57,598 bases of DNA from Candidatus Thorarchaeota archaeon (GTDB lineage Archaea > Asgardarchaeota > Thorarchaeia > Thorarchaeales > Thorarchaeaceae), in contig SDOA01000010.1 in NCBI GenBank assembly GCA_004524595.1, positions 1 through 57,598 of the forward strand, read 5' to 3'. Every line of letters begins with the position of its first letter. The stretch's first letter is position 1. This document shows positions 36,326-52,811 of the stretch, piece after piece. Both the position numbers and the translations under genes were made by a program. The notes under the pieces are model-generated. The model had not been told where the DNA came from, ran no database searches, and was given only the letters and a program-made list of their open reading frames with translations.

Positions 36326-36397
36326 GAATGCAAATATTTGTCCATCCTGCAGCACTAAGAAGTGAATGAAAAATATCAATAAGATGGAGCAATAACA

Positions 36398-37606: not shown

Positions 37607-37611
37607 AATAG

Positions 37612-37678
37612 AAGGCGCCACCCGCCGGGAAGCGGACACGACAGACAGCAGAATTAGGTTAGGGACTCGTGGCGCCTT
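37612..37678. other. Strong imperfect-repeat hairpin, possible structured RNA or terminator
   Basis: AAGGCGCCAC (37612-37621) pairs perfectly with GTGGCGCCTT (37669-37678), closing a 47-nt loop. That loop contains a further small stem, CCGC/GCGG (37622-37625, 37632-37635). It follows the amidohydrolase stop by five bases and ends 80 nt before the next gene. Its large, structured loop is unlike the simple hairpins elsewhere in the window. It matches no known RNA family that I can recall. Confidence 0.5.
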
Positions 37679-37757
37679 TCACTATGTTGTCTATCTCTTG
37701 ACTAATAAACACGTCAATAAATTACGAGAATATATTCTGCATTAAACACATGATTTT

Positions 37758-37946
37758 ATGACACACACGCCTCTAACATCCAGAATTAATCACTTTACTC
37801 GAGAACAACTTGAGGCAATCAATGAGATTCTTCGATTATTAGATCCTGAAGAGTTTAGAGATTATCATGATCAATTTGGCGTCTGTAATGCCCCAGATGC
37901 AATTGAGAGATTACGAGCTGAAGTTCAAAGAGCCCTCAATATGTGA
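37758..37946 (+). CDS. Small protein of unknown function
   Basis: A 62-residue charged helical protein (NHFTREQLEAINEILRLLDP, then ERLRAEVQRALNM). It has no signal or membrane segment and no motif I recognise. It sits alone between the hairpin element and the small membrane-protein gene on the other strand. ATG start; the frame is short, so moderate caution. Confidence 0.5.
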   Translation: MTHTPLTSRINHFTREQLEAINEILRLLDPEEFRDYHDQFGVCNAPDAIERLRAEVQRALNM

Positions 37947-37986
37947 ATGATTTACAGATGGAATTATTCGATGAAAAAGTGAGAGA

Positions 37987-38244
37987 TTACGATATTACAA
38001 AAGCTGGGGGAAATAAGACAAAATATTCGATGATTATTGACAATAGAATTCCACCAAAGACAAGACCACGACCACGGGAGATACTTGATTCTGTGAACCA
38101 TAATATCGCCCCGATAAGTACTATGATGACACCTGAAATCTGACCGACAAAAATCAGAAAGTTCCAAATCTCTGCGAAATATCCACCAATCAGTTGCACA
38201 AAATTTTGAAGAGGCGACTGCATTAGTAATTGTAACGGATTCAT
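37987..38244 (-). CDS. Small membrane protein, two helices
   Basis: An 85-residue protein with two hydrophobic segments: FLIFVGQISGVIIVLIGAIL and GLVFGGILLSIIIEYFVLFP, separated by the polar loop WFTESSISRGR. No conserved motif. The plus-strand frame opposite it (37943-38143) reads as antisense of this gene. ATG start. Confidence 0.55.
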   Translation of the reverse strand: MNPLQLLMQSPLQNFVQLIGGYFAEIWNFLIFVGQISGVIIVLIGAILWFTESSISRGRGLVFGGILLSIIIEYFVLFPPAFVIS

Positions 38245-38372
38245 TTCATAGACCCATGTTTCAATTAGTGTGCTGGAATTTAAAGTCCTAGAGTCATGAA
38301 TTATTACAGAAATATATAAATGAATAGAGCCATAAGTTTCCGAACTTTATCAATATGTTGAGGGAGTGATTC

Positions 38373-38723
38373 GTGTCATTTAGAGAATACTTGGGAATTG
38401 GTGGAGAAGACCGGCCGCAGCAAACATGTGATTGGTGTGGTAGGGAAATAGTGAGTTTCTGGTGGAGTGGGAGTGAGGGCAGGTATTGCTCATTCAAATG
38501 TTCTGCGGCTGGCAGCTATCATAGATATATATTACTTACAGCTAGTGTCATTACAATTACAGTCGTTTTCTTCAGTATTATAATCATGTTTTCTCTAAAA
38601 TCCCCAATCATTTCTCCTTTCTTTGTTATATTGATGATGATGGCTTTTACGCCAATTGCGGTATTTGACATTTCGTTATTGTATACACTGTATGTTGGCA
38701 GATATTTAAGAAAAGATAAATAA
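38373..38723 (+). CDS. Small zinc-binding membrane protein
   Basis: A 116-residue protein. Residues 18-50 hold four cysteines in a treble-clef-like pattern (TCDWCGREIV and YCSFKCSAAGSYH), probably a structural zinc site. Two hydrophobic segments follow, ILLTASVITITVVFFSIIIM and FFVILMMMAFTPIAVFDISL. GTG is the start. Function unknown; the zinc knuckle plus membrane helices suggest a membrane-linked adaptor. Confidence 0.72.
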   Translation: MSFREYLGIGGEDRPQQTCDWCGREIVSFWWSGSEGRYCSFKCSAAGSYHRYILLTASVITITVVFFSIIIMFSLKSPIISPFFVILMMMAFTPIAVFDISLLYTLYVGRYLRKDK

Positions 38724-38793
38724 AACCAAAATACAGTAGATTGAGGTGAAAAAATAGATTCTTGGTCATTAAATCTATGAGGTTAATGACGAG

Positions 38794-39219
38794 GTGTCTG
38801 ATCTGCTTGTTCCAGTCATGATTGTTCTTTTCATTTGGGGATTGATTGGTATAGTATTCTCCAGTGATACTGTGAATAAAGCTGAGAAAATTAGATGGAA
38901 ACTAGCATTATTCTTGATTGTTTCGCTATACTCGCTATCTTTAGCACTTGTATATTTTTTAGGTGTAGGCGTTGCTATATTAGTTAGCATTTATGATCCT
39001 ATTTCTGGATTTATTCAAATGGATATTATCTTCATGGAGATGCTAGTTTCTGGATTTGGTACTACTATCAGTTTGATATTCATGATGACATATTGCTGCA
39101 CATCAATATCAGGACAAAAGAGTATAAATTTCAAACACTTGATTGCAAGTACATTATTATTTGGATTTAGTGTTGCTCTTGTCATGGAAGTATTGATTAC
39201 ACTCTTCTTGAGTCCGTGA
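38794..39219 (+). CDS. Membrane protein of unknown function
   Basis: A 141-residue protein with four hydrophobic segments: PVMIVLFIWGLIGIVFS, LALFLIVSLYSLSLALVYFL, MLVSGFGTTISLIFMMTYC and HLIASTLLFGFSVALVMEVL. No motif is recognised. GTG is the start (GAGGTG...), 70 nt after the zinc-membrane gene, so both may form a short operon. Confidence 0.7.
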   Translation: MSDLLVPVMIVLFIWGLIGIVFSSDTVNKAEKIRWKLALFLIVSLYSLSLALVYFLGVGVAILVSIYDPISGFIQMDIIFMEMLVSGFGTTISLIFMMTYCCTSISGQKSINFKHLIASTLLFGFSVALVMEVLITLFLSP

Positions 39220-39262
39220 GTATAAAGCAGAATTACCAAAACGCAAAATCCAGAAAAAGTGG

Positions 39263-39394
39263 TGGGCCCGACGCGATTAGTCCCAGTTGGGGCAATCCCA
39301 GCTTGTTTGAACGCGCGATATCCGCCTTATCAGAGCGGCGCTATAAGAAACCAAGATCAGCAATACTGACCTTTCCAGTCTAAGCCACGGGCCC
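39263..39394 (-). tRNA. tRNA-Ile(GAT) with two non-canonical introns
   Basis: On the minus strand, acceptor GGGCCCG (39394-39388) pairs with CGGGCCC (39270-39264). The discriminator is A at 39263, and CCA is encoded (39262-39260). The anticodon loop CTGATAA gives GAT. The D stem is only completed as GCTT/AAGC if 29 nt (about 39343-39371) are removed. The T stem GCGCG/CGCGT encloses a loop that becomes TTCAAAT only if 29 nt (about 39277-39305) are removed. Exons then total 74 nt. The D-arm intron itself folds as GGTCAG/CTGATC. Confidence 0.9.
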
Positions 39395-39427
39395 ATTGCG
39401 TTCGAGATTGGTTTTGTTTATGTTCGC

Positions 39428-39437
39428 GATAAAAAGG
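39428..39437 (-). promoter_or_regulatory. tRNA-Ile promoter (TATA)
   Basis: On the minus strand CCTTTTTATC lies 34-43 nt upstream of the tRNA-Ile 5' end and resembles the rRNA promoter element (CTTTTTATG). The distance suggests a short leader before the mature 5' end. Confidence 0.4.
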
Positions 39438-39472
39438 TTATGACTGTGTGCTAGTTTGATTCTGAGTTTAAT

Positions 39473-40387
39473 TCATTTACAATCTTGCTGTGATAGTACT
39501 TTTGGGACTATTGTTTTGATGTGATTCAATGACTCTCTTGCTTCTGCCTTTGTAAGCTCAAAGATGATTGGACCACTAAAATTGTCTTTGACTAACGCTA
39601 AGAGAAATGCACCAAGTACTTCATCCCCCATTATTCCACGACCTAGAGGAAGATGATCATCACGTGCTATTGCACCATCATATTCACGATATGTGCCATC
39701 CTGGAGATGTATCTCTGTGATTCTATCACTATGATTTTTGTAGAACTCTATGACAGATTCTTTTCCGGACATGCGTGTGAGAAGATGGGCAGTATCAAAA
39801 CAAATACTTGTATCCAAATCATCAATCATTTCGCGTGTAATATCAAAAGGAAAAATACAGTTTTCAATTGCAAGTTTTCTGGATTCAATCTCAGTCTTCG
39901 TGATGATTTCCTCGACACTCCCCATTGAAAACTCAGATAATAATATGCAAATCAATCGAACCATATCCTCTGAGTATGGCAGAGCTGAAAAATCCGCAGC
40001 TAGATTCCCTGTGGCATGTAAAACATAAGTTTCTGGTTCTAACCTCTTAACCAAGTTGATACACTCAACTATACTCTTGATGCTGCCTTTACGAACAGGT
40101 TCATTGAATGTTGCCAATTCAATGGACCAGAAAGGAAGATGGATTGTATAGGATAATTTGAGTTCATCCTTTAGGTCTTCAAGTTGACTAATTGATTCAG
40201 GTGTAAATACAGAATCAAGAATATACTTCGCATCCATTGAGAATTCCATAACAGAATACCCTTCAGCAGCAACATCTCGAATAGTATCTACGACATTAAG
40301 ACGTGAGAAGTCCGGGATCCCATTCACAATCACTTGTTGTGCTGTGGATTGGAAATCGAGAGCTGTTAACCCAAATCTAAGAGGCAT
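39473..40387 (-). CDS. TIM-barrel sugar-phosphate isomerase/epimerase-like protein
   Basis: A roughly 304-residue protein of the xylose-isomerase-like TIM-barrel (AP endonuclease 2) superfamily. Pattern segments: FGLTALDF at strand 1, GYSVMEFSMDAKYIL, YTIHLPFWSIELATF (a metal-binding histidine), LAIENCIFPFDITREM, ICFDTAHLLTRM (aspartate and histidine), and ITEIHLQDGTYREYDGAIAR. These match inosose isomerase/AP-endonuclease-like metal enzymes. ATG at 40387 is preferred, giving MPLRFGL; AGGAG lies 12 nt upstream. The substrate is unknown. Confidence 0.83.
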   Translation of the reverse strand: MPLRFGLTALDFQSTAQQVIVNGIPDFSRLNVVDTIRDVAAEGYSVMEFSMDAKYILDSVFTPESISQLEDLKDELKLSYTIHLPFWSIELATFNEPVRKGSIKSIVECINLVKRLEPETYVLHATGNLAADFSALPYSEDMVRLICILLSEFSMGSVEEIITKTEIESRKLAIENCIFPFDITREMIDDLDTSICFDTAHLLTRMSGKESVIEFYKNHSDRITEIHLQDGTYREYDGAIARDDHLPLGRGIMGDEVLGAFLLALVKDNFSGPIIFELTKAEARESLNHIKTIVPKVLSQQDCK

Positions 40388-40493
40388 GATAAGAAGACTC
40401 CTTTTTGGATTAGAACCACACCTCCCGATAAACTGTACCATCGAGTGAAAGACATATACGAAGTGATGGTATTATAATGGAGAGGTGATTTGA

Positions 40494-41165
40494 GTGGGAA
40501 TTACGATAAAATGGATGGCACATGCGACATTCAAGATTAAAACAGACGAGCAGATTATCTATATAGACCCAACCACGAAGGGGACAGGTCTAAAAAAGGA
40601 GGATTTTGAGCCTGCAGATTTGATTCTGGTGACTCATGGTCATCAAGATCACTTCGACAAGGATTTACTCAAGAAAATCCGTAAACTCGGAAAACCTGTG
40701 ATTGCTCCTGAAAATCTCAAAAAAGAGATGAAAGGTATTGTGATGTGGGATTTAAGTCCAGGACAATTCATGAAGATGGCAGATGGCAGCGCTACCATCT
40801 GGGCTGTTGATGCATATAATGTAAAACGATTTCGATCCCCCGGTAATCCGTTTCATCCAAAAGGCTTTGGTGTTGGATATATTATCAAGATTGGTGATAA
40901 AAAGATCTATCATGCAGGCGATACCGATCTGATTCCAGAGATGGAAAAAATCATGGATATAGATGTTGCATTATTACCCAGTGGAGATACCTACACTATG
41001 GATAACAAGGAAGCAGCTGAGGCAGCATTACTCATCAAGCCTAAAGTAGCGATTCCAATGCATATGTGGGACACTGACCCAGAGGTGTTCAAGAACGAGG
41101 TAGAAGCCAAATCCTCTATCAAAGTAGTTATTCTGAAGAAAGGCGAAGAGTATAAACTTGAATAG
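40494..41165 (+). CDS. MBL-fold metal-dependent hydrolase (UPF0173/UlaG-like)
   Basis: A 223-residue metallo-beta-lactamase-fold protein. The metal motif reads LILVTHGHQDHFDKDL (HxHxDH). Other ligands are in KIYHAGDTDLIPEM and VAIPMHMWDTDPEVF. The N-terminal MAHATFKIKTDEQIIYIDPT matches the UPF0173/UlaG-like branch of small cytosolic hydrolases. The physiological substrate is unknown. GTG is the start. It is followed by a perfect hairpin at 41172. Confidence 0.9.
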   Translation: MGITIKWMAHATFKIKTDEQIIYIDPTTKGTGLKKEDFEPADLILVTHGHQDHFDKDLLKKIRKLGKPVIAPENLKKEMKGIVMWDLSPGQFMKMADGSATIWAVDAYNVKRFRSPGNPFHPKGFGVGYIIKIGDKKIYHAGDTDLIPEMEKIMDIDVALLPSGDTYTMDNKEAAEAALLIKPKVAIPMHMWDTDPEVFKNEVEAKSSIKVVILKKGEEYKLE

Positions 41166-41171
41166 ATGAAG

Positions 41172-41190
41172 CAGGAGGCAATGCCTCCTG
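41172..41190. terminator. Bidirectional hairpin terminator
   Basis: CAGGAGGCA-A-TGCCTCCTG is a perfect 9-bp inverted repeat that begins 6 nt after the MBL gene stop. It originally separated this gene from the cyclophilin gene on the other strand; it now precedes the cyclophilin 3' fragment. Confidence 0.55.
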
Positions 41191-41208
41191 TGCATCATAT
41201 TTTATGGA

Positions 41209-41432
41209 TTATCTCCAAGATTTTAATTTCTGAAGTTCGTGTTTTTCAATTGCAGGATCTACTTCAAGAACTTCGACTTTGAGCATCTTGTCGCCCTGCT
41301 GGATTTTTTGAATGACATCGAGGCCTTCGTTAGTCTGACCAAAAACGGTATGTCTGCCGTCTAGATGTTTTGTATTATCCTCATTCAGGACAATGAAAAA
41401 CTGGCTGCCTCCAGTATCTCTGCCTGCATGGG
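41209..41432 (-). pseudogene. Displaced 3' half of the cyclophilin gene
   Basis: The minus strand encodes the last 73 residues of a cyclophilin (HAGRDTGGSQFFIVLNEDN at the start, ending KLKSWR and stop) with no frame disruption. By hand alignment it matches the 3' end of the intact gene at 47988-48476 with 23 differences in about 230 nt (about 90% identity). Most differences are at third codon positions. Homology begins at codon 90 and stops abruptly at 41432/41433, right beside the stop codon of the HNH gene. It has no start of its own. It is best read as the original gene end displaced by the inserted region. Confidence 0.85.
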
Positions 41433-41433
41433 A

Positions 41434-42654
41434 CTAGTTGGATTGTTCGTGATTTATGCGCCTTAAGATTTCTTCAATTTGATTCCAATGAATATTGTAG
41501 GACCTCATAAGTGCATGAGTGATTTCATGGCAGTTTCTACAAAGCGCCACCCACTCATCTCTTTTTAAAGATTTTAATCCTGAAATTGTCCACAACAAGC
41601 TACCTGAATGATGTTGACCATCTTTTTTATGAATGATTTCTCTTTCAGAGTTACAGATAACACACTCTTTTCCGAATAACTCATCACGGAATTGCTTAAC
41701 ATCCAATCGCTCTTTAGGTCTTACGCTCCAACCTTGTTCTCTAATAGTTCTCTTGATGGGACCCGTGGAGTTGCATCCATAGTAATCAGCTATTTTTTGA
41801 AAGGAGAGTTCTTCTTCAAAATATAGATTGTATAATTCATCTGGATCAATCTCTATTCTCGGAACATTTGGCGAAGGTTTTGGTTCCAAACCTTGTAGTT
41901 TGAGAATCCGTTCAATTGGACTTCTGGATTTATATCCAAAATGCTCTGCAACCTCTAATAGAGTAAGATCCTTCTCATAATACAATCTACGGACTTCATT
42001 GGAATCTATTTCCTTCCTCGGAGTAGTGTATGGTCTGCCAACCCAACCCATCTTTCTCATAATATCAAATATCGGTTTACTCGTTTTATAACCAAAATAC
42101 TTGTCTATTTCTAATTGAGTCATTTTTTCGTCATAATATAATCTATGAACTTCGTTTGGATCTATTTCCATTTTGGGAATGGAGCTAGGTCTTGCTTGCC
42201 ACCCTTGTTCTCTCAATATCCTTCGAATTGGAGAACGTGACTTGAAACCCATTATTTCTGCTACTTCATCAAGGGTGCGCTTATCCTCGTAATATAGTTT
42301 GTAGACCTCTTTAGGATTCATCTCTATCTTTTGGAAACCAACTGGGTTTATCTTAATCCCAGCAGCCTCAAGAATGTGCTTGATGGGTTTCCCACTCTTA
42401 AAACCATACAGTTCTCCTATCTTTATTAAGCTAAATCCATCTTCAAGGTAGAGTCTTTGTATTTCTTCATATTCAGATATATCAGAAGTTCTCAGTTTTT
42501 CAGAATGCTCAGTATTGTACTGACGAATGATCTCATCCCTTTTTTCAACATTCAGATGGTGAGTCTTGTAATCTTTGACCTTGGTCTCTTCAAGTTGTGT
42601 TCTCTCAGGTGATGTCTTCTCAGTTTCTTCACTGAAGTCTATGTCCTCATTCAC
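41434..42654 (-). CDS. HNH nuclease with five tandem DNA-binding repeats
   Basis: A 406-residue protein. After a polar N-terminus, five repeats of about 52 residues run from about residue 60 to 318. Each carries a phrase like IDPNEVHRLYYDEKMTQLEI, a turn with GYKSRSPI or a relative, and RxxGWxxRP. They look like small resolvase-type helix-turn-helix modules. The C-terminal 70 residues hold an HNH-like nuclease: CVICNSEREIIHKKDGQHH, then WVALCRNCHEITH, with two cysteine pairs for zinc. This design resembles mobile site-specific homing endonucleases. Its stop codon directly abuts the cyclophilin fragment. I infer a mobility or DNA-recognition role; target sequence unknown. Confidence 0.85.
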   Translation of the reverse strand: MNEDIDFSEETEKTSPERTQLEETKVKDYKTHHLNVEKRDEIIRQYNTEHSEKLRTSDISEYEEIQRLYLEDGFSLIKIGELYGFKSGKPIKHILEAAGIKINPVGFQKIEMNPKEVYKLYYEDKRTLDEVAEIMGFKSRSPIRRILREQGWQARPSSIPKMEIDPNEVHRLYYDEKMTQLEIDKYFGYKTSKPIFDIMRKMGWVGRPYTTPRKEIDSNEVRRLYYEKDLTLLEVAEHFGYKSRSPIERILKLQGLEPKPSPNVPRIEIDPDELYNLYFEEELSFQKIADYYGCNSTGPIKRTIREQGWSVRPKERLDVKQFRDELFGKECVICNSEREIIHKKDGQHHSGSLLWTISGLKSLKRDEWVALCRNCHEITHALMRSYNIHWNQIEEILRRINHEQSN

Positions 42655-42771
42655 TATTCTTCACCTCGGTAAGATAATCATAGATATTCGACCATTTGAA
42701 TTGGAGATCGGTTGCTCCTCCAGTCCCTCCCTTCCGTTGAACTGTTATTGGTCCAATGCAGAAACAACTGA

Positions 42772-42993
42772 TGCGAGTCTTTCGAACTTCGCCGACGAGA
42801 CCCTGCAGAATGGAAACGAGTCCATGAGTATGGAAAGCGGAGCCTTGTGGAGACCGTGTTCGGGATACTGAAGGTGCGATTCGGAGGAGGAATGAGTTCC
42901 AGAGGGTTCAAAGAACGACGACGAGAACTCCTGATCAAGGTCATCCTTCACAACATCCAACGGTTGAACTTCATGGAGTGTGACGGGAGGTGA
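42772..42993 (+). pseudogene. Transposase remnant (DDE, IS5-like C-terminus)
   Basis: Reading forward from a stop at 42769 gives 73 codons that translate to the end of a DDE transposase. They contain RDPAEWKRVHEYGKRSLVE (final catalytic glutamate), TVFGILKVRFGGGMSSRGFK and ILHNIQRLNFMECDGR, then stop. The N-terminal two thirds are absent. It marks a decayed insertion sequence inside the accessory region. Confidence 0.7.
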
Positions 42994-43150
42994 CTTTTCA
43001 CATAGAGCCCATTCTCAGACATGGTATATTAGAAACAGAATTGTATCCTACAACTTAGGACATTGCAGAGTTAATTTAGAACCACTAGAAATACAAAATC
43101 CGCCTCTGGATTCTTGTATTATCGAAAAAGCCATGTTTTTTAAAAAGCTA

Positions 43151-43681
43151 TCAGGGAATTATACTTGTATATCTATCCCACCTACGAACACCTGTAGGGC
43201 CATCTGCAAGGACACCTACATATATATGTGACAAATTATGAAGATCAAAAGAGGTTTGAAATGTCAAGCTGATTTCTTCATTAGCACTTAGAGAGAAATC
43301 ACCTTCGATCACAGTTATTTCACTAGTGGTTTTTATTTCGCCAAGAGTAGAATTGAATTCTAACAGGTCGTTCTCAACACATATGAATGCTTTTTCAATC
43401 AGATAGAGTTCACCTTCCGGAATTGGATAATTCTTGTAGCTTTCAACTATACAAATAACAGTAAATGATACAGTTCCATTATTATAAACCACTTCCTGAG
43501 TGATTGATAGGCGTAAATGAATATAGGGAGGGATACCATACTCATCTGGAATGATTAGATGAAGAGTGAACCCCCCACTAACTATACATGAAATAATTAT
43601 GCAACCAACAAAAACTTTTCTTGGTCTTGATAATTGTTTCCATGCGTTCTGCAATTTTCGAACTAAATGGGGTGAACTCAC
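43151..43681 (-). CDS. Membrane-anchored secreted protein, unknown
   Basis: A 176-residue protein with a single hydrophobic segment at residues 23-45 (VFVGCIIISCIVSGGFTLHL) and a beta-rich outer part (LRLSITQEVVYNNGTVSFTV). No family is recognised. It lies 14 nt downstream of the subtilase gene on the same strand, so they may be co-transcribed. Confidence 0.68.
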   Translation of the reverse strand: MSSPHLVRKLQNAWKQLSRPRKVFVGCIIISCIVSGGFTLHLIIPDEYGIPPYIHLRLSITQEVVYNNGTVSFTVICIVESYKNYPIPEGELYLIEKAFICVENDLLEFNSTLGEIKTTSEITVIEGDFSLSANEEISLTFQTSFDLHNLSHIYVGVLADGPTGVRRWDRYTSIIP

Positions 43682-43695
43682 TCTTGTAGCCTTCT

Positions 43696-45708
43696 TTAAC
43701 CTAGCAATCCACCTGAGGGGACTTGAGACACCCGAATTTCATCCCAAAGGGCATAACCGTAGTTTCCTGATGCCCATCCACCTCTGAAAGCACAGATTAC
43801 GGGCCCCTGCATGTAAAGTGTGTTATAAGCTATTGGTCCCGCTAAGGTAATGACGGCTGAAGTATAAGTCTGTCCATCAGCTCGCCGTGCAATCCTTAGT
43901 TTTAAATAATATCCCGACGGGGAATACACATAATAGATATGAATTTCAACTTGTTGCCACTCATAACACCACCATCCCGTGTGGCTGTAGACATCCTCTT
44001 CATATAGCTTTGTTGAAGAACCTTGGTACATCCTGTAGACTTGGAGATATTTGCCATAGAATCTTACCTTCACATAGTTGTCACTATCCTGATAAACTGG
44101 GTAGAAATCATGGTAAGCCAATGCATAGCCATTTGAGCGTTTAGTGTAATATGAAAAGTACTTATCATAATCTGGATTTACTCTTAGTTGTTGATCTCCT
44201 ATCCTAGCCCATTGATATGCTACTACTTTATCTCCTGAAGAATCTGTCATATACATTTTACCTTGATAAAGATAGGGATCGAAACGGGGCCCATAGGCAG
44301 TTGTTATGGGATGGCATGACCAACTGTTTGTATCATAATCTTGAAAGTCATCTAGACATGCAAAATTCAACGTTTCCCAAGAATCTATGATCCCATGGCC
44401 ATAATAGTCATTTTGACGTTCTGTAGTCTTACTATAATCATCTGGATCAGTATCTTGACCACCTGGATCACAATGATACTTAAGAAAGTCCTTTACTACC
44501 GAACTTGAAGGATTAGAACCTCTAACATTTGATAATAGCTGATATGTCACTGCTGCTTCTCCTGCTACAAGCGGTGCTGAAAAGCTTGTTCCTTCCCAAT
44601 CACCGAAATCGTCTAAATGTCCATTGTCATCCTCGTCGTTTTGAATTGGTGCATAAACATATGTACCTGGAGCTACCACTTCAATTTCAGGACCATAATT
44701 AGAATAAGAGGTCATTTCTCCTTCATCTGGTTCATCCCGAGTATATACTGCACCAATTGCCATTACATTGGCATATTTAGCAGGGTAGAATACGGAGGTG
44801 TGAGAATTTCCAGATGAAGCGATCATGACTGTTTCTCCATCCGATACAAGATTATCCACTGCATTTTGAAGTCCAGTCCACGTATATGACCCTCCCCATG
44901 AACAACTGACAATTTCAGGATCATGCCAGGCATATAAAAGCTCTAAAGCCCATTGCCAATGAAAATCTCTTTTTGTTGTATCATAAACATCTACCACAAT
45001 TAGGTCTACATAAGGAGCCATCCGTAGAAATGTTCCTACAACTCCAGTACCATGGCCTGGGCCATCATACACTCCAACTTTTTGGGAAGAATCATGCTCA
45101 TAATCACTGTAAGATGTCCATTCATCTTCAGTGTCAATATAGTTGTTAGATGCCCAATATACATAGTGACCAAAAGGCCACCAACCCTCGTAATGATAAT
45201 TGATATCAATATACCACATTGTACGTAATGTACCATCAGGTCTATACATCAGATCTTCATGGGGATGAACACCTGTATCAACAATAGCGGCCGTGACTCC
45301 TTGTCCAGGTTTGGGCATATTTATTTTGTCAATCCAATTATGGCCATTGTCAACGTTTAGCATTTCATAAGCAGTATCATCAGAGTATCCTGGTATTGCA
45401 GCTAGTAATTCAACTGAATTATTACTTTCGGCAGAATCAACTTCTATAACTATTTCTGCAAAACTCCTATTGATAAAGGATGAGATAACTTTATGAGAAT
45501 CCCCAGTTATCACAGAATTAGTTTCTTCTGTAGGTTCTTGTCCTAGATTTGAGAATGCTGCCATTAAGAAATCATTCCCGCTATTTCCTCTATCCATTCC
45601 TTGACCCATAGTTATTGGAAATGTATCTATTGCTGTCATCAGGACTATTAAAGAAATAAATAGAACTGAGATCAGCTTAACTCTTTTCTGATATTTCACG
45701 AAATCCAC
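43696..45708 (-). CDS. Secreted subtilisin-family (S8) serine protease
   Basis: A 670-residue exported protease. The signal segment KLISVLFISLIVLMTAIDTF is followed by a propeptide-like region. The catalytic triad is clear: aspartate in AAIVDTGVHPHED (about D144), histidine in GPGHGTGVVGTF (about H219), serine in GTSFSAPLVAGEAAV (about S375). A C-terminal domain of about 200 aromatic-rich residues has beta-sandwich-like phrases (HTGWWCYEWQQVEIHIYYV). It probably acts on outside proteins. It is placed in the inserted region between the cyclophilin copies. Upstream it overlaps a doubtful small frame by 32 bp. Confidence 0.93.
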   Translation of the reverse strand: MDFVKYQKRVKLISVLFISLIVLMTAIDTFPITMGQGMDRGNSGNDFLMAAFSNLGQEPTEETNSVITGDSHKVISSFINRSFAEIVIEVDSAESNNSVELLAAIPGYSDDTAYEMLNVDNGHNWIDKINMPKPGQGVTAAIVDTGVHPHEDLMYRPDGTLRTMWYIDINYHYEGWWPFGHYVYWASNNYIDTEDEWTSYSDYEHDSSQKVGVYDGPGHGTGVVGTFLRMAPYVDLIVVDVYDTTKRDFHWQWALELLYAWHDPEIVSCSWGGSYTWTGLQNAVDNLVSDGETVMIASSGNSHTSVFYPAKYANVMAIGAVYTRDEPDEGEMTSYSNYGPEIEVVAPGTYVYAPIQNDEDDNGHLDDFGDWEGTSFSAPLVAGEAAVTYQLLSNVRGSNPSSSVVKDFLKYHCDPGGQDTDPDDYSKTTERQNDYYGHGIIDSWETLNFACLDDFQDYDTNSWSCHPITTAYGPRFDPYLYQGKMYMTDSSGDKVVAYQWARIGDQQLRVNPDYDKYFSYYTKRSNGYALAYHDFYPVYQDSDNYVKVRFYGKYLQVYRMYQGSSTKLYEEDVYSHTGWWCYEWQQVEIHIYYVYSPSGYYLKLRIARRADGQTYTSAVITLAGPIAYNTLYMQGPVICAFRGGWASGNYGYALWDEIRVSQVPSGGLLG

Positions 45709-45910
45709 CTTTCCCTATTGCTAATTCCATTGGAATCTCCCCGTCGCGCAGTAATGCACTGAGCTCTGATTTAACACTTTGTTTATTGTGCAATGCTTCA
45801 GAAACTAATCTGGAGAAGTTGTCCCAATCTGCAAAAGCATCGACTGTCTTCACTTCTCGCAAAAGATGAAGTTTCTTAAGAAACCGTTTTGTTGTGACAG
45901 ATTCTATCAC
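45677..45910 (-). pseudogene. Possible NYN-domain remnant
   Basis: A 77-codon frame that overlaps the subtilase start. Extending it upstream to the preceding stop reads IFWDFENVHVIESVTTKRFL, then VKTVDAFADWDNFSRLVSEA. That resembles the first half of a NYN (PIN-like) RNase domain, where FWDxEN is the metal-binding start. The frame ends after about 90 codons, short of a full domain, so a truncated remnant is likely. It could also be a small real gene. Confidence 0.4.
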
Positions 45911-45981
45911 ATGTACATTCTCAAAATCCCAGAATATGTGCTAGATGATGATTGAAATCTATATTCTCGATTTGTAATCCT

Positions 45982-46209
45982 TCAAGTATGCAGATGGATA
46001 CAGACTATGAATTCATCCTCATCGATATTCTCTTGCTCAGTGAAGTGTTTTTCCCATGCAACTGCTTTTTCGACGTCACCCCGCTCTGCTTCAACAAACT
46101 TCATATCACGTAGATTTGCACGATTCGGTAACAAATCTGCACGATATATGGCTCCAAACTTCCGAGAACGTTGAATAACAATTAGATCTGTATCTGGATA
46201 GAATCCCAT
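45982..46209 (-). pseudogene. Frame-disrupted remnant, unknown
   Basis: A 75-codon frame (FYPDTDLIVIQRSRKFGAIY, then AWEKHFTEQENIDEDEFIVC). It overlaps by a one-frame step an upstream frame with SDLEERIGNLEELLKDSAW, suggesting one protein broken by a frameshift near 46205. No family is recognised. It may be decayed DNA in the inserted region. Confidence 0.35.
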
Positions 46210-46434
46210 GCTGAATCCTTCAATAACTCCTCTAGATTACCGATCCGTTCTTCAAGATCAGACACTGCTTGCATTTTCATCTGATTACAGTTAGGAACAT
46301 TCTTCATCTGTATTCTTCCCACCTTTACTCGAATTGATACATTGGTTTACCAAAGGAAATCAGCTCCTCCCAACTGGTACCTTCTGGCGGCATCGTCAAC
46401 CTACTATGTTGTGGTGTATGCAAATCTAGGTTCT
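46210..46434. other. Accessory region, no intact gene
   Basis: This stretch of the inserted region holds short minus-strand frames: MPPEGTSWEELISFGKPM-like near 46325-46400, and the coiled-coil-like upstream part of the remnant at 45982. None is long or conserved enough to call. No RNA was recognised. Confidence 0.35.
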
Positions 46435-47342
46435 CTATTTTAAAAATATCCAGATAGCGTAAAGTAACATGATTACACCGATAACCAAGATTCCGAGTAA
46501 TATGATGTTTAGAGGATTGTCGAACCAACCATTGACCAACTCAACCTCAACTCTACCAAGTTGTCCACTCATCTTTCCCAGAGTGTCATACGCTTTCAGA
46601 TAGACTGTGTAATTACCATTATCCCAATCGTATGTCTTCCAAGTGAAACTGCCCTCGAACGTATACCTGACATCCAACTCAGAGTTCATTATTGTGTCCA
46701 CAAGAACATCATCAATTAGGGTTCAACCCTCTCTACTGGATAGCAATCATCAAGTACTTCGAACTCAATGGATACTTCCCCAGTTAAAGGACCTTGAAGT
46801 GTAGTCATTGAAACCAATGATGGAGCTTCTGTATCAGTCTTGATAATAATATCAAGCTCATCCTGTATACCAGCGTATGCTGTAGATACCGCATTAGAGA
46901 AGTAAACATACCACGTGTCTGAGTCAGGAGCTTCAAAATTCCAATAATACCATCCTTCCTCAATTCGAGGATAGTTATGAATTTCATGGGCATTATTCGG
47001 ATTAGTAGCTCCTGAATTCTGTATTTCATCATGAGCAAACTGATCAACGATGAAAAAGTGAATCCCATCACCGTTGTTTATTCTCAACCATCCAGCCATT
47101 GCCTCACCTTCATTAAGGGCAACAGATAGGTATCTTGCAGAATATGCATCTACAACAAAATCATTCTCATTGTGAATCTCTATAGCAGTAACTTCTGGTG
47201 TATTTATTGTCCCATAGGTTAGGAGGACAAGAACTATAGTCACAAAGAATAATCGATTATTTGTTTCTCGTTTTATTTTCAAATCAATGTCTTTTTTTGC
47301 TTTATCAATGACCGCATTATAGTATTTTCTTATTGTTGTCAT
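46435..47342 (-). pseudogene. Secreted Ig-like protein gene with a frameshift
   Basis: Two minus-strand frames form one protein of about 300 residues. The first (47342-46716) has a membrane segment at residues 32-47, then a beta-rich pre-peptidase-like region (DGIHFFIVDQFAHDEIQ; APDSDTWYVYFSNAVS) and the start of an Ig-like domain (LTGEVSIEFEVLDDCYPVE). The second (open from 46722) continues that domain (LIDDVLVDTIMNSE, then YDWDNGNYTVYLKAYDTLG) and ends in a C-terminal helix (NIILLGILVIGVIMLLYAIW). The two frames overlap by seven bases around 46716-46722, so one base lost or gained explains the break. The gene is probably inactive, unless this is a sequencing error. Confidence 0.7.
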
Positions 47343-47472
47343 ATTTATCCCTCAATTAATGGAACCATTGGTATAGAGGATTATATTGAACTGGTTCAAT
47401 TTAAATTGAAATAAAACTTACACTCAAGATTGATGAGATTATGACACTTCATTTTGGAAGTTCTCATATCCA

Positions 47473-47742
47473 TCAAATAAGTGCTGCAATCAGCAGCGAA
47501 ACGAAAAGAACATGAAGAGCGCTGTAAACTACCATCAATGTGACTGACATAATCCCTACGTGATAGAGCCAAATAAGGCTATCATGCTTGCGAAATAGAA
47601 AGGGGGGAATAGTCATTCCAATGACTATTCTTACGATAGCCATGATTATGATGTCATTCATCCAAAGGTCGTTATACTGCAAAGGGGGACTCTGATTTGT
47701 TAGTGATAAATAACCAAAAACCAATCTCCAACTTACAAGCAT
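47473..47742 (-). CDS. Small membrane protein
   Basis: An 89-residue protein with two or three hydrophobic segments (IIIMAIVRIVIGMTIPPFLF and VGIMSVTLMVVYSALHVLFV). No recognised motif; it may be a remnant. It lies near the right end of the inserted region. Confidence 0.5.
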   Translation of the reverse strand: MLVSWRLVFGYLSLTNQSPPLQYNDLWMNDIIIMAIVRIVIGMTIPPFLFRKHDSLIWLYHVGIMSVTLMVVYSALHVLFVSLLIAALI

Positions 47743-47987
47743 ACATACTATACAATAGATAGATTTAGTTTACTGAACTCCACATCCGCTCACCTGAATA
47801 AGGAATGTATTCATGCAGATTAATACCTTCCTTTGATTCCAGAAGGTGGCTTTTCCTCAGATGGAAGTAGGGAAAACTTGTCGATAGAGTGGAAATCGTT
47901 AGTCTAACAGGAACCAGTGTTCTGTATAGTCCTCTTCGACATTGTCGATTAGTGACATTGACCAGCTATCACTTTTTCAAGTATGAA

Positions 47988-48476
47988 TTATCTCCAAGAT
48001 TTTAATTTCTGAAGTTCATGTTTTTCAATTGCAGGATCTACTTCAAGAACTTCAACTTTGAGCATCTTGTCACCCTGCTGGATTTTTTGAATTACATCGA
48101 ATCCTTCAATTGTGTGACCAAAGACGGTATGTCTACCATTTAGATGCTTTGTGTTATCCTCATTCAATACAATAAAAAACTGACTACCTCCAGTATCTCT
48201 TCCTGCATGGGCCATCGAGAAAGCACCGATTTTGTGTTTCTGTCTGTGTCCTCGTGTTTCGCAAGGAATTGCATAACCAGGACCTCCAGAACCTGTACCA
48301 GTAGGGTCTCCACCTTGAATGACAAATTCATCTACGACTCTATGAAAGGTCAATCCATCATAATAGCCACTCTGAGCAAGTGTGACGAAGTTTTTGACCG
48401 TGTTAATTGCATCATCATTCCAGAATTCAGCAAGAAGATCCCCACGGTTCGTTTGAATCTTAATCGTTGTTGGCAT
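47988..48476 (-). CDS. Cyclophilin-type peptidyl-prolyl isomerase
   Basis: A 162-residue cytosolic isomerase that helps protein folding by turning proline bonds. The family motifs are complete: FHRVVDEFVIQGGDPTGTG, GPGYAIPCE, and SQFFIVLNEDNTKHLNGRHT, with the active-site FHR arginine. ATG start. Codons 90-162 are duplicated at 41209-41432, beyond 6.5 kb of accessory DNA. The intact gene is composed of a host-derived 5' part and a 3' part that probably came with the element. Confidence 0.94.
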   Translation of the reverse strand: MPTTIKIQTNRGDLLAEFWNDDAINTVKNFVTLAQSGYYDGLTFHRVVDEFVIQGGDPTGTGSGGPGYAIPCETRGHRQKHKIGAFSMAHAGRDTGGSQFFIVLNEDNTKHLNGRHTVFGHTIEGFDVIQKIQQGDKMLKVEVLEVDPAIEKHELQKLKSWR

Positions 48477-48613
48477 TTCTACACCTTACATATTGTTTTG
48501 CGAGAATCGCATTTCTGGTAGGAAATCAGTTTTGTACTTAGGCGTTTGGGAAGAGTCCTATTTGATAGTCCTGCCTATTGGCTTATTAGCAGATTCAAGA
48601 AGGAAAACAATGA

Positions 48614-49819
48614 ATGATTGTCGAGAGAGAATATACCGAAGGCAGGACAACAATCCTCAGTGCAGATGTAGAGCATTATAGTGGAGGTAAGAAACAAATC
48701 ACTGCAAGTCTACCTGTATTCTATAATCCACGAATGCGTCTGAATCGTGATGTTTCTGTGCTCTTTCTCTCAGCATATTTGCAGGATACAAAAATAGATA
48801 CTATGTGCGAGCCATTAACAGGGTCGGGTATCAGAACACTTCGATATCTGAATGAATGCCCGGGTGATTTTACTGCAAAGATATTTGACGCCAATCCGAA
48901 TGCAATAGAAACAGCATCAAGGAATATTGATAGGCTTGGTCTAAAACAGAGGGCACAAGTACTGAAGGGTGATGCCAAGTTTCTACTTATGGTTGAATCT
49001 CGTGAGAATAGGTTTGATTTTGTTGATTTGGACCCTTTTGGCACTCCAGCTCCATACCTTAATGCATCAATCCAGTCGCTGAACCCAGAAGAAGGATTAC
49101 TCGCATTAACTGCGACTGACATGCCAGTACTCTGTGGGGCATATCCCAATGTTGCTATGCGTAGATATGGGGGATTTTCGATTCGAACTCCATTCACACA
49201 TGAACTAGCTGTGAGATTACTTCAAGGCTTTGTATTTCGGGTTGCTGGATTGAATGACTGTTCGATTAGACCGTATGCAATATTGAGCACGGATCATTAT
49301 GTGAGAACGTGGGTTAAGGTAAGTGCTGATAGAAAAGCATCAAACAGACAAGTTGAGTCGCTTGGAATCATTAGATACTGTCTTGGTTGTATGTGTTCTG
49401 AAACCATTCCACTGAGTATAAAATATAATGATAAGCCTTTCAAACACGTAAGAAAAGATTGCAGAGGACCTGTAAAGGAGGCAGGCCCTCTATGGACTGG
49501 AGACCTCTTCCAACAAAAAACAATAGAACAGGCACGAGTTCTGTTGAACAAGGAGGATGTAAGTATCTATCATAAAAGAGTGCCACGAATTCTTGAGGAG
49601 ATGCATGAGGAACAACCTCTGATGCAATTTCCCTTTATTGATCTTCATGCACTCTGTGATTTGCACAATCTAACTCCTCCAAAAAATAGTCAGGTCATAG
49701 AATACCTCAAAGACATGGGTCATAAGGTATCCAGAACACACTTCAGACCAACAGCAATTAGAACTGATGCTCCAATCCAGGAAATCGTATTAGCGATATC
49801 GAACCTGATGAAAAGGTGA
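48614..49819 (+). CDS. trm1: tRNA (guanine26-N2)-dimethyltransferase Trm1
   Basis: A 401-residue enzyme that methylates G26 of tRNA using SAM. Segments include ITASLPVFYNPRMRLNRDVS, the SAM-binding MCEPLTGSGIRTLRYLNE, the catalytic DFVDLDPFGTPAPYLNASI, and TATDMPVLCGAYPNVAMRRY. A C-terminal zinc-like part has IRYCLGCMCSETIPL. Length matches archaeal Trm1. It overlaps no gene and is followed 6 nt later by ftsJ, consistent with an RNA-modification operon. Confidence 0.95.
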   Translation: MIVEREYTEGRTTILSADVEHYSGGKKQITASLPVFYNPRMRLNRDVSVLFLSAYLQDTKIDTMCEPLTGSGIRTLRYLNECPGDFTAKIFDANPNAIETASRNIDRLGLKQRAQVLKGDAKFLLMVESRENRFDFVDLDPFGTPAPYLNASIQSLNPEEGLLALTATDMPVLCGAYPNVAMRRYGGFSIRTPFTHELAVRLLQGFVFRVAGLNDCSIRPYAILSTDHYVRTWVKVSADRKASNRQVESLGIIRYCLGCMCSETIPLSIKYNDKPFKHVRKDCRGPVKEAGPLWTGDLFQQKTIEQARVLLNKEDVSIYHKRVPRILEEMHEEQPLMQFPFIDLHALCDLHNLTPPKNSQVIEYLKDMGHKVSRTHFRPTAIRTDAPIQEIVLAISNLMKR

Positions 49820-49825
49820 ACACGA

Positions 49826-50461
49826 ATGGCAAGAGGATCAGAAGGAGAACGGCGCAAGAAAGAACACTATTACAAAGCAGCTAAAAGAGCAGGGTATCGA
49901 AGTAGGTCTGCCTTCAAGATTAAACAGATGGTAAAAGACCAAGGACTTCTAAAGGGTGTAGATATCGTATTGGAGCTATGCAGCGCACCTGGAGGTTGGA
50001 CCCAAGTTTTGCGTGAACTGAATAAAAACCTCAGAATTGTTGCAATTGACCTAGATGAAATGCAACCAATTCAAGGAATACATTTCATTCAAGGAAGTAT
50101 CCTTGATGAAACAATAATCAAGAAAGCTAGTGAATTGATAGGCTGTTCCTTCGACTTGGTACTATCGGATTGCTCACCCAAAGTATCAGGACACTGGGAA
50201 CTGGATGTTGTTAGGCAGCTTGAACTCGCTGAACGAACATTTGAGATAGGAGTACAGGTTCTTGGACCTAATGGAAAAGCACTAGCAAAAGTATTCCAAG
50301 GGACGGGATTCCAAGAATTCCTTCAATCAATACGAAGGCAATATAATAGTACAAAACTTATCAAACCGCCAGCATCGAGAAAATCCAGTGCAGAGATATA
50401 TCTACTAGCTGCGGGGCCACGTAGAAGAGTAGAAGATTCTGAAGAGATTGATGAAGATTAG
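49826..50461 (+). CDS. rlmE: FtsJ/RlmE-type rRNA 2'-O-methyltransferase
   Basis: A 211-residue methyltransferase that adds a 2'-O-methyl group to uridine in the 23S rRNA A-loop. The catalytic K-D-K-E set is visible: lysine in RSAFKIKQM, aspartate in LVLSDCSPKVSGHW, lysine in ALAKVFQGTGF, glutamate in SSAEIYLLAAG. The SAM-binding motif is LELCSAPGGWTQVLRE. The C-terminal tail is short and acidic. Six nt separate it from trm1, and its last 4 bp overlap the opposing rpc34-like gene. Confidence 0.93.
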   Translation: MARGSEGERRKKEHYYKAAKRAGYRSRSAFKIKQMVKDQGLLKGVDIVLELCSAPGGWTQVLRELNKNLRIVAIDLDEMQPIQGIHFIQGSILDETIIKKASELIGCSFDLVLSDCSPKVSGHWELDVVRQLELAERTFEIGVQVLGPNGKALAKVFQGTGFQEFLQSIRRQYNSTKLIKPPASRKSSAEIYLLAAGPRRRVEDSEEIDED

Positions 50462-50805
50462 CGAATGTCTGCTCCCATCCATTCTTCAAGTTCTTTACAA
50501 TACACCGGTGAATCAGGTTGTCGAACACCGCATTTACTAATTCTCAAACAATGGAAGCAAGGACAACCATTCATGTCTGATAGACCACTTGGCTCGCTAT
50601 CATCAGTGATTGCTGCTTTCAATACATATTGTTCATTTTTGATTTCTTGTTTCTGCATTATCCGTCCCTCGGACAACAGAGTCGTTAGAGCTAACATGAT
50701 CTGTTCTTTTTCAATGCCAAGTTTTTCAGCCAGTTCATCAATAAGAAGACCATCTTTACCTGCGGTTTTTAGTTCACTCAGTACCAGGGTATCGATATCG
50801 CTCAT
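50458..50805 (-). CDS. Rpc34-like winged-helix protein with C-terminal Fe-S motif
   Basis: A roughly 115-residue protein. The N-terminal winged helix reads LVLSELKTAGKDGLLIDELA, then GIEKEQIMLALTTLLSEGRI. The C-terminal motif CPCFHCLRISKCGVRQP, then SPVYCKELEEWMG, mirrors the cubane-cluster end of eukaryotic RNA polymerase III subunit RPC34 (Cys-x2-Cys, Cys, Gly, Ser-Pro, Cys, Trp). Archaeal orthologues of RPC34 are known. It sits where tfb often follows gar1 and srp19 in archaea. ATG at 50805 is chosen, with an AGGT upstream. RNA polymerase or initiation-factor association is inferred. Confidence 0.7.
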   Translation of the reverse strand: MSDIDTLVLSELKTAGKDGLLIDELAEKLGIEKEQIMLALTTLLSEGRIMQKQEIKNEQYVLKAAITDDSEPSGLSDMNGCPCFHCLRISKCGVRQPDSPVYCKELEEWMGADIR

Positions 50806-50933
50806 TGAAATGACCTTTGAATAGAAACATGGCAACATCAAACGAACTACACATGATGATATTTAATTATCGGAAGCTGCTAACCATTATCGGCAATTGT
50901 CGTATAAGAAAAAGCTTGAATGTACATAAGTGT

Positions 50934-51173
50934 TCATCGCTTTTTATATAGATATACCATCTGGCCAACTATTTTTTGAGGGTCAAAATCGCGCCGAGGG
51001 CGAATTGATACATATGGGTTGGCTACAGGTCCAAAGACATCAACGATAGTACCTATTTCCTGTGCCTGTTTATCCATAACTATGGACTCGCTCCCAGTAG
51101 GGGGCGTCTTATCAGTGCGAATTATTATTGAACCACGATTTGTTATGTGAAGGACTTTCCCTAATCGTCTCAC
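50934..51173 (-). CDS. gar1: H/ACA RNP protein Gar1
   Basis: A 79-residue single-domain beta-barrel protein of the H/ACA pseudouridylation complex. The family pattern is GKVLHITNRGSIIIRTD, then IGTIVDVFGPVANPYVSIRP, ending in VGQMVYLYKK. It binds the Cbf5 thumb loop and helps release product. It is encoded 18 nt downstream of srp19 on the same strand, a gene pairing common in archaea. Confidence 0.94.
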   Translation of the reverse strand: MRRLGKVLHITNRGSIIIRTDKTPPTGSESIVMDKQAQEIGTIVDVFGPVANPYVSIRPRRDFDPQKIVGQMVYLYKKR

Positions 51174-51191
51174 CTAATCCACTCCCGATAG

Positions 51192-51548
51192 TTACCGTTT
51201 CTTCTTCTTCTTCTTGCTCTTTTTTGACTCCTGAGCAAGACGAGCGGATTCTCTTTGAGCAATAGCTCTTCTGACTCCTTTTGCGAGCATGAGCATGACT
51301 CTCTTCTTCTTATGACCTTCATCGTTTGCTACTGCAATATAGCCCCGTTTTTCACTCCAATAACGGGGATACTGTTTATCAGTCTCGGTTTCATATTCAA
51401 AGCCGGCAGATTCAGCAGCGTCTTCAAGGATACCAATTGTTACATCTGAAGCTGCAAGATTGCTTGGAATCTTACGACCCTGAGAGCGTGAGATATTTTT
51501 CTCAAAATATGCAGGCCAGAATATAAGCGTCCCATCTCGTTTTCTCAT
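51192..51548 (-). CDS. srp19: Signal recognition particle protein SRP19
   Basis: A roughly 118-residue RNA-binding protein of the signal recognition particle. The family signature is LIFWPAYFEKNISRSQGRKI at the N-terminus, with DAAESAGFEYETETDKQYPR and WSEKRGYIAV. A basic tail (KKSKKKKKKR) binds 7S RNA. ATG at 51548 is chosen, with GGAAG upstream. It starts the srp19-gar1-rpc34-like run on the minus strand. Confidence 0.95.
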   Translation of the reverse strand: MRKRDGTLIFWPAYFEKNISRSQGRKIPSNLAASDVTIGILEDAAESAGFEYETETDKQYPRYWSEKRGYIAVANDEGHKKKRVMLMLAKGVRRAIAQRESARLAQESKKSKKKKKKR

Positions 51549-51716
51549 GTGATTTGCTTCCAAGTTATGCTGTTCAGACTCTGATTGTTACACTTTTTAC
51601 CTTTCTCATGGGTCATGTTCCGTATACCATCAAATCTCTGTTCTTAATATAACAGAATTCCAACAAGATTCATATAGACAATTATTTCCCTCTCGAAAAA
51701 CAATTAGTTGATACTA

Positions 51717-52139
51717 ATGACACAATGTCAGTTGTGTATTGGGGTTGTTTCATCCAACACAATATGGAAGAATCAGCAAGATATTTTCTGTTCAAACTGT
51801 GCTACTGTTAAGCTTCTATCCTTAGAATGTCGAAGTATCTCTCGTGAAGCAGAAGAGGAATTAGTGAATATATCAAGGGAGATAGAGAAGCTTGTAGATA
51901 AAGGTCAGGGAGAAGAAACACTACATCTCATACGAAAAGAACTAACACTCCTTGACAAAATGGTAGTTCCTGAAATGGCATTTGGGGGTGTTAGTACTGG
52001 GATTTATTACTTCAATGAGGCTATGAAGAAGGCAAACCGTCTTGATAGTATCCAATTCTTTAAAGATCGTGTCTTTCTTAATGGGGGAATTACTTTTGTC
52101 AGTGTAGTACTATATCAGAAGAAGAATCTTGACCTTTAG
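51717..52139 (+). CDS. Zinc-ribbon-like protein, unknown
   Basis: A roughly 140-residue protein. The N-terminus has two cysteine pairs (CQLC and CSNC) for a zinc site. A helical middle follows (EEELVNISREIEKLVDKGQG). The last 40 residues are mixed strands (GGITFVSVVLYQKKNL). No family is recognised. ATG at 51717 is used; TTG at 51708 is in frame. Confidence 0.68.
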   Translation: MTQCQLCIGVVSSNTIWKNQQDIFCSNCATVKLLSLECRSISREAEEELVNISREIEKLVDKGQGEETLHLIRKELTLLDKMVVPEMAFGGVSTGIYYFNEAMKKANRLDSIQFFKDRVFLNGGITFVSVVLYQKKNLDL

Positions 52140-52250
52140 AAATGGAAATATTTCATTGGGCATGTTCCAAGAAACATATGAGATAGTTACATAGAATCTT
52201 GAGAGAACGTCTTAAGAAGGGGATAGAAACCTTCAGTTGACTGAATATAG

Positions 52251-52748
52251 GTGAAGAACAAGTTGAAGCGAAAGAGTAAGGATGTGTACTTTGCAGAGAT
52301 AGCAGATTTAGTATCGTCCAGAAGCACCTGCCTCAGGAATCAGGTTGGTGCAGTGATAGTGAAGGAATCTCAGATTCTTAGTACTGGGTATAATGGAGCC
52401 CCAAAGAAACTTCCTCACTGTTCAGAGGTTGGATGTCTTAGAGAGGCATTAGGAGTAAAGCCAGGAGAACGCCATGAACTCTGTCGAGGTCTACATGCAG
52501 AACAGAACGCTATTATCCAAGCAGCATATCATGGTATAAGTGTACGAGATGCAAAGATATACTGTACCACTAGACCGTGCAGTATTTGTACGAAGATGAT
52601 AATCAATGCAGGAATTAAGGAGATTATCTATATCGAGGAGTATGATGATGATTTAGCTGCTCAATTATTAAAAGAATCAGACCTTATTATCAGACAGGTA
52701 GTGATTCCCCGTGTTTATGGGAGAAATGGTACCAACTCAAGGAAATAA
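52251..52748 (+). CDS. Deoxycytidylate (dCMP)-type deaminase
   Basis: A 165-residue zinc deaminase giving dUMP for thymidylate synthesis. The zinc site is complete: [11 protein letters not shown] (HAE) and [16 protein letters not shown] (PCxxC). The N-terminal [19 protein letters not shown] fits dCMP deaminases, and other zinc-linked cysteines are in [16 protein letters not shown] start. It lies upstream of pyrB, so both may form a pyrimidine set. Confidence 0.9.
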
Positions 52749-52811
52749 TTCATAGCTGGAAAGCTTAAAGAGTGACTTACTTCCAGATTCAGTCCCAGGT
52801 GTGAAAACCAC

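Follow-up and report, generated by a model that had tools for sequence, protein, structure and literature searches.

A candidate homing element with target restoration at the cyclophilin gene of a Thorarchaeota archaeon

Homing starts with an endonuclease cut in the target and is completed when the break is repaired from a homologue that bears the element. The E. coli element e14, which lies in icd, is driven by an integrase and restores the 3′ end of its target gene. SSV1 integrates at a tRNA-Arg gene, also by means of an integrase, and restores the 3′ end of that gene (PMC3293823). In fungal mitochondria, mORFs with a carboxy-terminal duplication are described in atp6, atp9, cox2 and nad3 of Glomus sp. 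and in atp6 of Allomyces macrogynus; the native end matches close relatives and the inserted end is foreign (PMC3630166). HeimM2 of Heimdallarchaeum, an 8-kb element with a homing-endonuclease homologue, lies exactly between a 16S rRNA gene and a tRNA gene; its enzyme, which resembles rRNA self-splicing homing endonucleases, was proposed to have been co-opted for site-specific integration (PMC8813620). HomeR is an engineered home-and-rescue drive that uses synthetic CRISPR/Cas9 in Drosophila (PMC7968924). No archaeal or bacterial report of a target-restoring homing element was found among the open-licence PMC papers that the searches listed. The locus presented here lies in a stretch of 57,598 nt from a Candidatus Thorarchaeota archaeon (assembly GCA_004524595.1, contig SDOA01000010.1), called the window below, where an insert that encodes an HNH protein (41433–48211) has given a cyclophilin gene a second 3′ end.

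The repeat at the cyclophilin gene is a single 230-nt direct repeat, 41203–41432 against 47982–48211, on the same strand with 90% identity and a spacing of 6,779 nt. Both copies are the 3′ end of the gene (47988–48476, minus strand; Pfam Pro_isomerase, E = 4.3e-42), from codons 89/90 to the stop codon plus 6 nt. Since the next-longest direct repeat within 34000–54000 measures 28 nt, its length is far beyond chance. A sequence-only reading of the window had described a doubled gene end, 6.8 kb apart in one orientation, with an abrupt limit at 41432 and mostly third-position differences, and this description holds in full. The alignment breaks sharply, with GGG/ACT at 41432 against GGG/CCA at 48211, and the 222 coding nucleotides contain 22 differences, of which 18 fall in third codon positions and four change the amino acid. 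The gene in its present state is intact: the host 5′ part (48212–48476) is continued in frame by the carried end, giving an open reading frame (ORF) of 162 codons. When the element is removed in silico, joining 41432 to 48212 restores an uninterrupted frame of 162 codons as well.

The truncated copy is preceded by a metallo-beta-lactamase-fold (MBL) gene, the native left neighbour (40494–41165, plus strand; Pfam Lactamase_B_3, E = 1.4e-28), and by an intergenic stretch (41166–41202) with a hairpin at 41173–41189; by eye, AGGAGAC-type hairpins occupy the same place in relatives. For this reason 41203–41432 (minus strand) is taken as the displaced native end and 47982–48211 (minus strand) as the element-borne one. 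The sequence downstream of 47982–48211 is unlike the native flank. On the other side lies the native right neighbour Trm1, a tRNA dimethyltransferase (48614–49819, plus strand; TIGR00308, E = 1.5e-83), which adjoins cyclophilin in relatives. Repeat boundaries, flanks and empty sites thus confirm, at the level of sequence, 41433–48211 as a 6,779-bp insert that brought a replacement cyclophilin end and left a hybrid gene. The HNH gene (41434–42654, minus strand) sits between the displaced and the carried end, and its stop codon is one base away from the break at 41432/41433. An intron or intein was considered and rejected: a single, interrupted copy of the gene would be expected, whereas the gene end is duplicated and the HNH gene has its own stop codon at the junction. 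ARAGORN found no tRNA gene in the window.

The locus was compared with 47 genomes of the class of the Thorarchaeota metagenome-assembled genome (MAG) that best matched the window Trm1 (55%; next 34%; 23 loci). G numbers designate the genomes compared and L numbers the fetched loci or regions. Cyclophilin is present in 41 of the 47, and two (G031 and G032) have a further, partial copy on the contig that carries the first. Twenty regions were fetched, 19 at cyclophilin matches of class genomes and one (G009) at a partial match. In five relatives (G027, G019, G021, G018 and G022) the site is empty: 48–65 nt separate the aligned ends of the MBL gene and a single intact cyclophilin gene, and Trm1 comes next. 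The sequence-only reading had proposed to look for such sites in related genomes. Empty sites would also result if the repeats recombined and the element was lost precisely, so no number of insertions is claimed. In the remaining fetched regions, no MBL gene was adjacent, the contig started or ended inside the gene, or (G030) other sequence lay between. The 959-nt gap of G030 was rejected as a further occupied site; it holds a kinase-like gene (by eye) and no displaced end. A contig of G009 (C204) was also set aside, as it begins inside the cyclophilin gene.

The occupied site is found again in G032, where the order is MBL, displaced 3′ end, HNH remnant, about 9 kb of other genes and intact cyclophilin. 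The remnant comprises 70 residues, 84% identical to the window protein. The junction is at the same nucleotide as in the window and adjoins the HNH stop codon. The cargo differs from that of the window; four of the five ORFs searched match AhpC/TSA, an SBF transporter, GCV_H/DGC and an ABC ATPase. The displaced end of G032 is closest to G021 (83.3%) and G028 (81.5%), the corresponding values for the carried end being 76.6 and 78.4%; the host 5′ part is 87.4% identical to G021 and 87.7% to G028. Of the two ends, it is the displaced one that sits closer to the relatives of the host, which marks it as native and the carried end as foreign on sequence distance.

This second occupied site bears on two rival explanations. 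An assembly chimera, or an old local duplication in a MAG, might be suspected as the window probably comes from a MAG and as a related contig (G029:C67) looks chimeric at cyclophilin by eye; however, the junction recurs in an independent assembly, that of G032, the five relatives with an empty site lack the element, and the flanks can be joined in frame. This explanation is therefore judged extremely improbable. In G029:C67 itself (L087:3784–4286), cyclophilin homology stops near codon 86, and the sequence fused to it looks bacterial by eye; the locus was rejected as an element with an unrestored gene, the contig being probably chimeric. The other explanation is a Campbell-type single crossover, by which foreign DNA with a cyclophilin 3′ end would have been taken up through homology, without a specific enzyme. 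The repeat, with 230 nt at 90% identity, is long enough for recombination, and the event would give a hybrid gene. It is nevertheless considered very unlikely, because in G032 the same-nucleotide junction comes with cargo of another kind and with two ends that are only 78.4% identical to each other, because rpsB is broken at the same codon in two species (see below), and because the insertions are associated with one protein family.

The HNH protein (406 residues) consists of five helix-turn-helix (HTH) units followed by a C-terminal C..C/H/C..CH motif, which is also present in its relatives. Two PHROG families of HNH endonucleases match it, 8446 with an E-value of 5e-20 (the best stretch being in the HTH part) and 3106 with 0.00046 (residues 307–381). 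By motif and profile match, the protein is assigned to the HNH endonucleases. A structure model agrees with HTH units plus HNH at moderate confidence (mean pLDDT 74.1, pTM 0.30). Foldseek comparison of the model with the PDB gave nothing at E = 0.001 or better; the best local matches were HTH domains and, weakly, Cas5-HNH. The 'CAP repeat' 8vd6, which appears in a protein-design paper, matched weakly and was rejected as a relative.

At E = 0.001 the HNH protein was matched in 17 of the 47 genomes. Among 227 genomes of the phylum, the window protein was matched at E = 1e-15 in 13, all within the 47, and a two-HNH relative at E = 1e-10 in 16, one of which (G126) is outside the 47. A search of about 5.8 billion proteins returned 17 matches at E = 1e-10, including the window's own. 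In viral contigs, one stretch fitted a search pattern and none encoded a relative. Forty regions around HNH or HTH matches were fetched, some of which are not family members; L143 was rejected, as its HNH is unlike the family and the locus is a tandem duplication.

Relatives of the HNH protein adjoin restored targets elsewhere: a gene termed gene G (G009), rpsB (G032 and G012), tRNA-Leu (G032) and tRNA-Thr (G028). Among these targets, both 5′ and 3′ ends are restored. In G009, a 30-nt repeat starts directly after the HNH stop codon and is the start of the gene for a 172-aa protein, gene G, which is present in 38 of the 47 genomes. It adjoins a methyltransferase-like gene without insertion in 17 of 19 fetched relatives; of the other two, one has about 1.2 kb between the genes and one a contig edge. 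Between the displaced and the present start, 8 of 37 nt and 6 of the first 12 codons are changed, all synonymously, the protein being the same. Compared with the 19 relatives, the mean number of mismatches is 4.1 for the displaced start and 10.4 for the present one, against 4.8 among the relatives themselves. By this distance measure, the displaced start is native and the present start foreign.

The rpsB gene is present in 46 of the 47 genomes and is directly preceded by rpoN in 24 of 24 relatives (by eye). In G032 and G012, what follows rpoN is a start of rpsB that ends after the same Met-Asp-Arg codons in both genomes; rpsB itself is found on a separate contig, preceded by an HNH gene, and is whole in G032 and cut by the contig end in G012. 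The two halves of the insertion are thus on different contigs, and it is not spanned. G020 is probably a further case; it looks alike and its contig ends first. Upstream of the rpsB-site HNH genes of G032 and G020, similar-looking ORFs of about 900 aa are seen by eye (L105:4301–7102 on G032:C134 and L106:3818–6526 on G020:C259), so that elements of one target clade may have conserved cargo. As a separate observation, a 1,313-aa ORF of G012 (L108:8468–12409 on C581) has an N-terminus like the HNH family and stands just before an apparent gene for RNA polymerase subunit A′′ (by eye), which is itself divided between two ORFs. The similarity of the HNH proteins partly tracks the target, with 84% identity for the cyclophilin-site pair and 67% for the rpsB-site pair G020/G012.

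The sequence-only reading had remarked that the usual targets of integrative elements are tRNA genes, and such genes are targets for relatives of this HNH protein. At tRNA-Leu of G032 (L119), an intact tRNA gene, the HNH ORF and a displaced tRNA 3′ end with native flank follow one another, the HNH ORF being the only one of at least 90 aa between the intact tRNA and the displaced end. The same tRNA-Leu gene is uninterrupted in G028 and G029. At tRNA-Thr of G028, a 23-nt repeat of the tRNA 3′ end flanks the HNH ORF on either side. Further bracketing repeats are found at tRNA-Thr in G047 (17 nt) and at the 5′ end of tRNA-Cys in G022 (26 nt). The tRNA-Leu of G032 (L119:8340–8510 on C51) carries a T-loop insert of 28–29 nt about where the displaced 3′ end begins (by eye), which is absent in G028 and G029. 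The insert is possibly a noncanonical intron that shields the site. Rfam did not recognise a tRNA in this region, which fits a T-loop insert and is no proof of it.

The association with tRNA genes was evaluated on 30 HNH ORFs, 23 of a two-HNH group and 7 with a single HNH, short pieces such as L118 and L137 being placed by judgement; 375 ORFs of at least 200 aa from the same regions and the cyclophilin regions served as controls. A tRNA gene lies within 320 nt in 18 of 23 two-HNH, 0 of 7 single-HNH and 37 of 375 control cases (Fisher, 4.5e-13), where three Rfam tRNA matches at L114 and L137 were added by hand (7 loci examined), which slightly favours the HNH group, and where several of the 18 loci are close relatives at one site, about 13 being independent. 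A test for repeats within 500 nt upstream, applied to 28 of 31 loci with a null that includes tRNA-to-tRNA matches, gave p < 0.02 only for L117, L126 and L130, with 0.020 for L119 and 0.035 for L118 and L128. Repeats of 23 nt located 5.9–7.5 kb away in L134–L136 look like other tRNA genes and were not counted. In eight loci (L114, L117, L132, L133, L134, L135, L136 and L137), the HNH gene converges on the tRNA gene, and the position of its stop ranges from about 21 nt within the tRNA 3′ end to 11 nt beyond it; in L117, L132 and L137, the antisense T-loop supplies the HNH stop codon (by eye).

The sequence-only reading had proposed an integrative element with a gene 3′ end of its own. The element and its carried end stand, with five empty sites and the in-frame flank join in their favour, and homing with target rescue describes its mode of movement better than integration of the integrase type does. 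In an element of the e14/SSV type, the integrase would have been lost or would act in trans, attP would carry the gene 3′ end, and the HNH protein would be a passenger. The footprint of a restored gene and a displaced 3′ end would be the same, archaeal viruses and plasmids do likewise at tRNA genes (PMC3293823), and the window element is partly decayed, so that an integrase could have disappeared. As had been reported from the sequence alone, however, no tyrosine or serine recombinase was recognised in the eight ORFs and four further open segments of the element that were searched, its other short segments lying outside the search, nor in five cargo ORFs of G032, whose contig lists 40 ORFs. 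The tRNA-Leu and tRNA-Thr elements hold little but the HNH gene and have space for little else; the HNH stop is at the junction in the window, G032 and G009; and 5′ ends are restored as well as 3′ ends. The integrase-type explanation is thus regarded as unlikely.

Homing with restoration of the target is the likely explanation for 41433–48211. The HNH protein, with its HTH array for recognition, would cut a cyclophilin gene free of the element at about codon 89/90 (MA|HAG motif), and the break would be repaired from an element-bearing homologue, whereby the element would be copied in. The outcome is shown by the sequence: the element ends in its own copy of the gene, which runs from the break to the stop codon and makes up, with the host 5′ part, the intact hybrid gene of the window, and the native end has been pushed 6.8 kb away. 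Differences in the carried copy, which elsewhere are recoded codons or an intron-like insert, would protect the restored gene against renewed cutting. As mobility enzyme, the HNH protein is the best candidate, because some elements contain only the HNH gene, its stop codon is at the junction in three cases, and HNH similarity and target partly match. The earlier suggestion that this protein provides mobility is strengthened by the relatives at other targets.

Several points weigh against this explanation. Cleavage of the uninterrupted site is an inference, and the match of the window protein to the Pfam HNH model falls short of the cut-off. The carried and displaced ends of the window are about equally distant from all relatives compared, so that the flank, not distance, decides which is native. 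In the carried copy of the window, only one of the first 20 nt differs, and in G032 the two copies agree throughout the first 26 nt, counted from CATGC; immunity by divergence is therefore weak in the window and not visible in G032. At gene G and tRNA-Leu, such immunity is plausible. At the cyclophilin site of G032, the HNH gene is a fragment. The third rpsB-site HNH protein (G032, L105) is only 41–43% identical to the other two, which weakens the match between HNH clade and target. Of the 23 two-HNH loci, only 4 (L117, L119, L126 and L130) showed a bracketing repeat close by, and no target was identified for L108, L110 and L118. Two copies without the DNA between them, which the sequence-only reading had set against an insertion, are most nearly approached in G031 (L086:10113–10933 on C205), where an intact gene and a partial 3′ end (residues 116–161) lie 0.68 kb apart without an HNH gene. 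As this fragment is itself truncated and adjoins the MBL gene, the locus is probably a deletion remnant or decayed element.

The remainder of the window element has the accessory character that had been ascribed to it. A remnant of a DDE transposase C-terminus (42772–42990, plus strand) lies beside the start of the HNH gene, with a DDE_Tnp_1 match below the curated cut-off (E = 0.0011). It is followed on the minus strand by a gene for a 176-aa protein of unassigned family (43151–43681; no Pfam or NCBIfam match at E = 0.1) and by a subtilase gene of family S8 (43696–45708; Peptidase_S8, E = 1.8e-28), whose 670-aa product has an N-terminal hydrophobic stretch by eye. Five short ORFs of 77, 75, 88, 208 and 89 aa (45677–47742, minus strand) have no family match above cut-off and are probably broken cargo genes.

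There is about an even chance that Thorarchaeia host a radiating natural home-and-rescue family, in which a nuclease with modular HTH units was retargeted among cyclophilin, rpsB, a conserved gene for a membrane protein and tRNA genes, the latter often being hit at the T-loop. A copy of the target end would be part of each element, some copies would be shielded (by the recoded codons of gene G or the T-loop insert of tRNA-Leu), and some elements would move kilobases of cargo. Such a family would tie some noncanonical tRNA introns to immunity against these elements. The gain of tRNA introns with an integrating element is discussed in PMC3293823, where the idea of protection is credited to Randau and Soll; a T-loop insert at a homing junction would make this idea testable with a defined enzyme and site. 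If the proposed mechanism is true, it would provide cargo-bearing elements with an integrase-free route into conserved genes of archaeal chromosomes, and it would account for the hybrid housekeeping genes of Asgard archaea, from which misleading gene trees can result. It would also be a natural counterpart of engineered rescue drives.

HomeR shares with the archaeal elements the tie between a nuclease element and the rescue of an essential target, but it is synthetic, whereas the elements described here are natural. SSV1 and e14 share the restored target and the displaced 3′ end, but are driven by integrases, none of which was found in the parts of the window element that were searched. HeimM2 is the nearest Asgard case found, being a site-specific element with a homing-endonuclease homologue; duplication of a target end or restoration of a gene is not among the features described for it in the parts of PMC8813620 consulted. 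The nearest precedent is the fungal mitochondrial mORF with carboxy-terminal duplication, in which the endonuclease gene is likewise flanked by two gene ends, on one side a foreign C-terminus that is fused to the host gene and on the other the native C-terminus in its displaced position (PMC3630166). The mORF enzymes, as described there, are of the LAGLIDADG or GIY-YIG type and act in organelles, whereas an HNH motif and HTH arrays are found here in an archaeal chromosome. Compared with mORFs, the archaeal elements are characterised by sizes from 1.2 kb to about 9 kb or more, by cargo, by rescue of 5′ as well as 3′ ends, and by targets that include both protein and tRNA genes.

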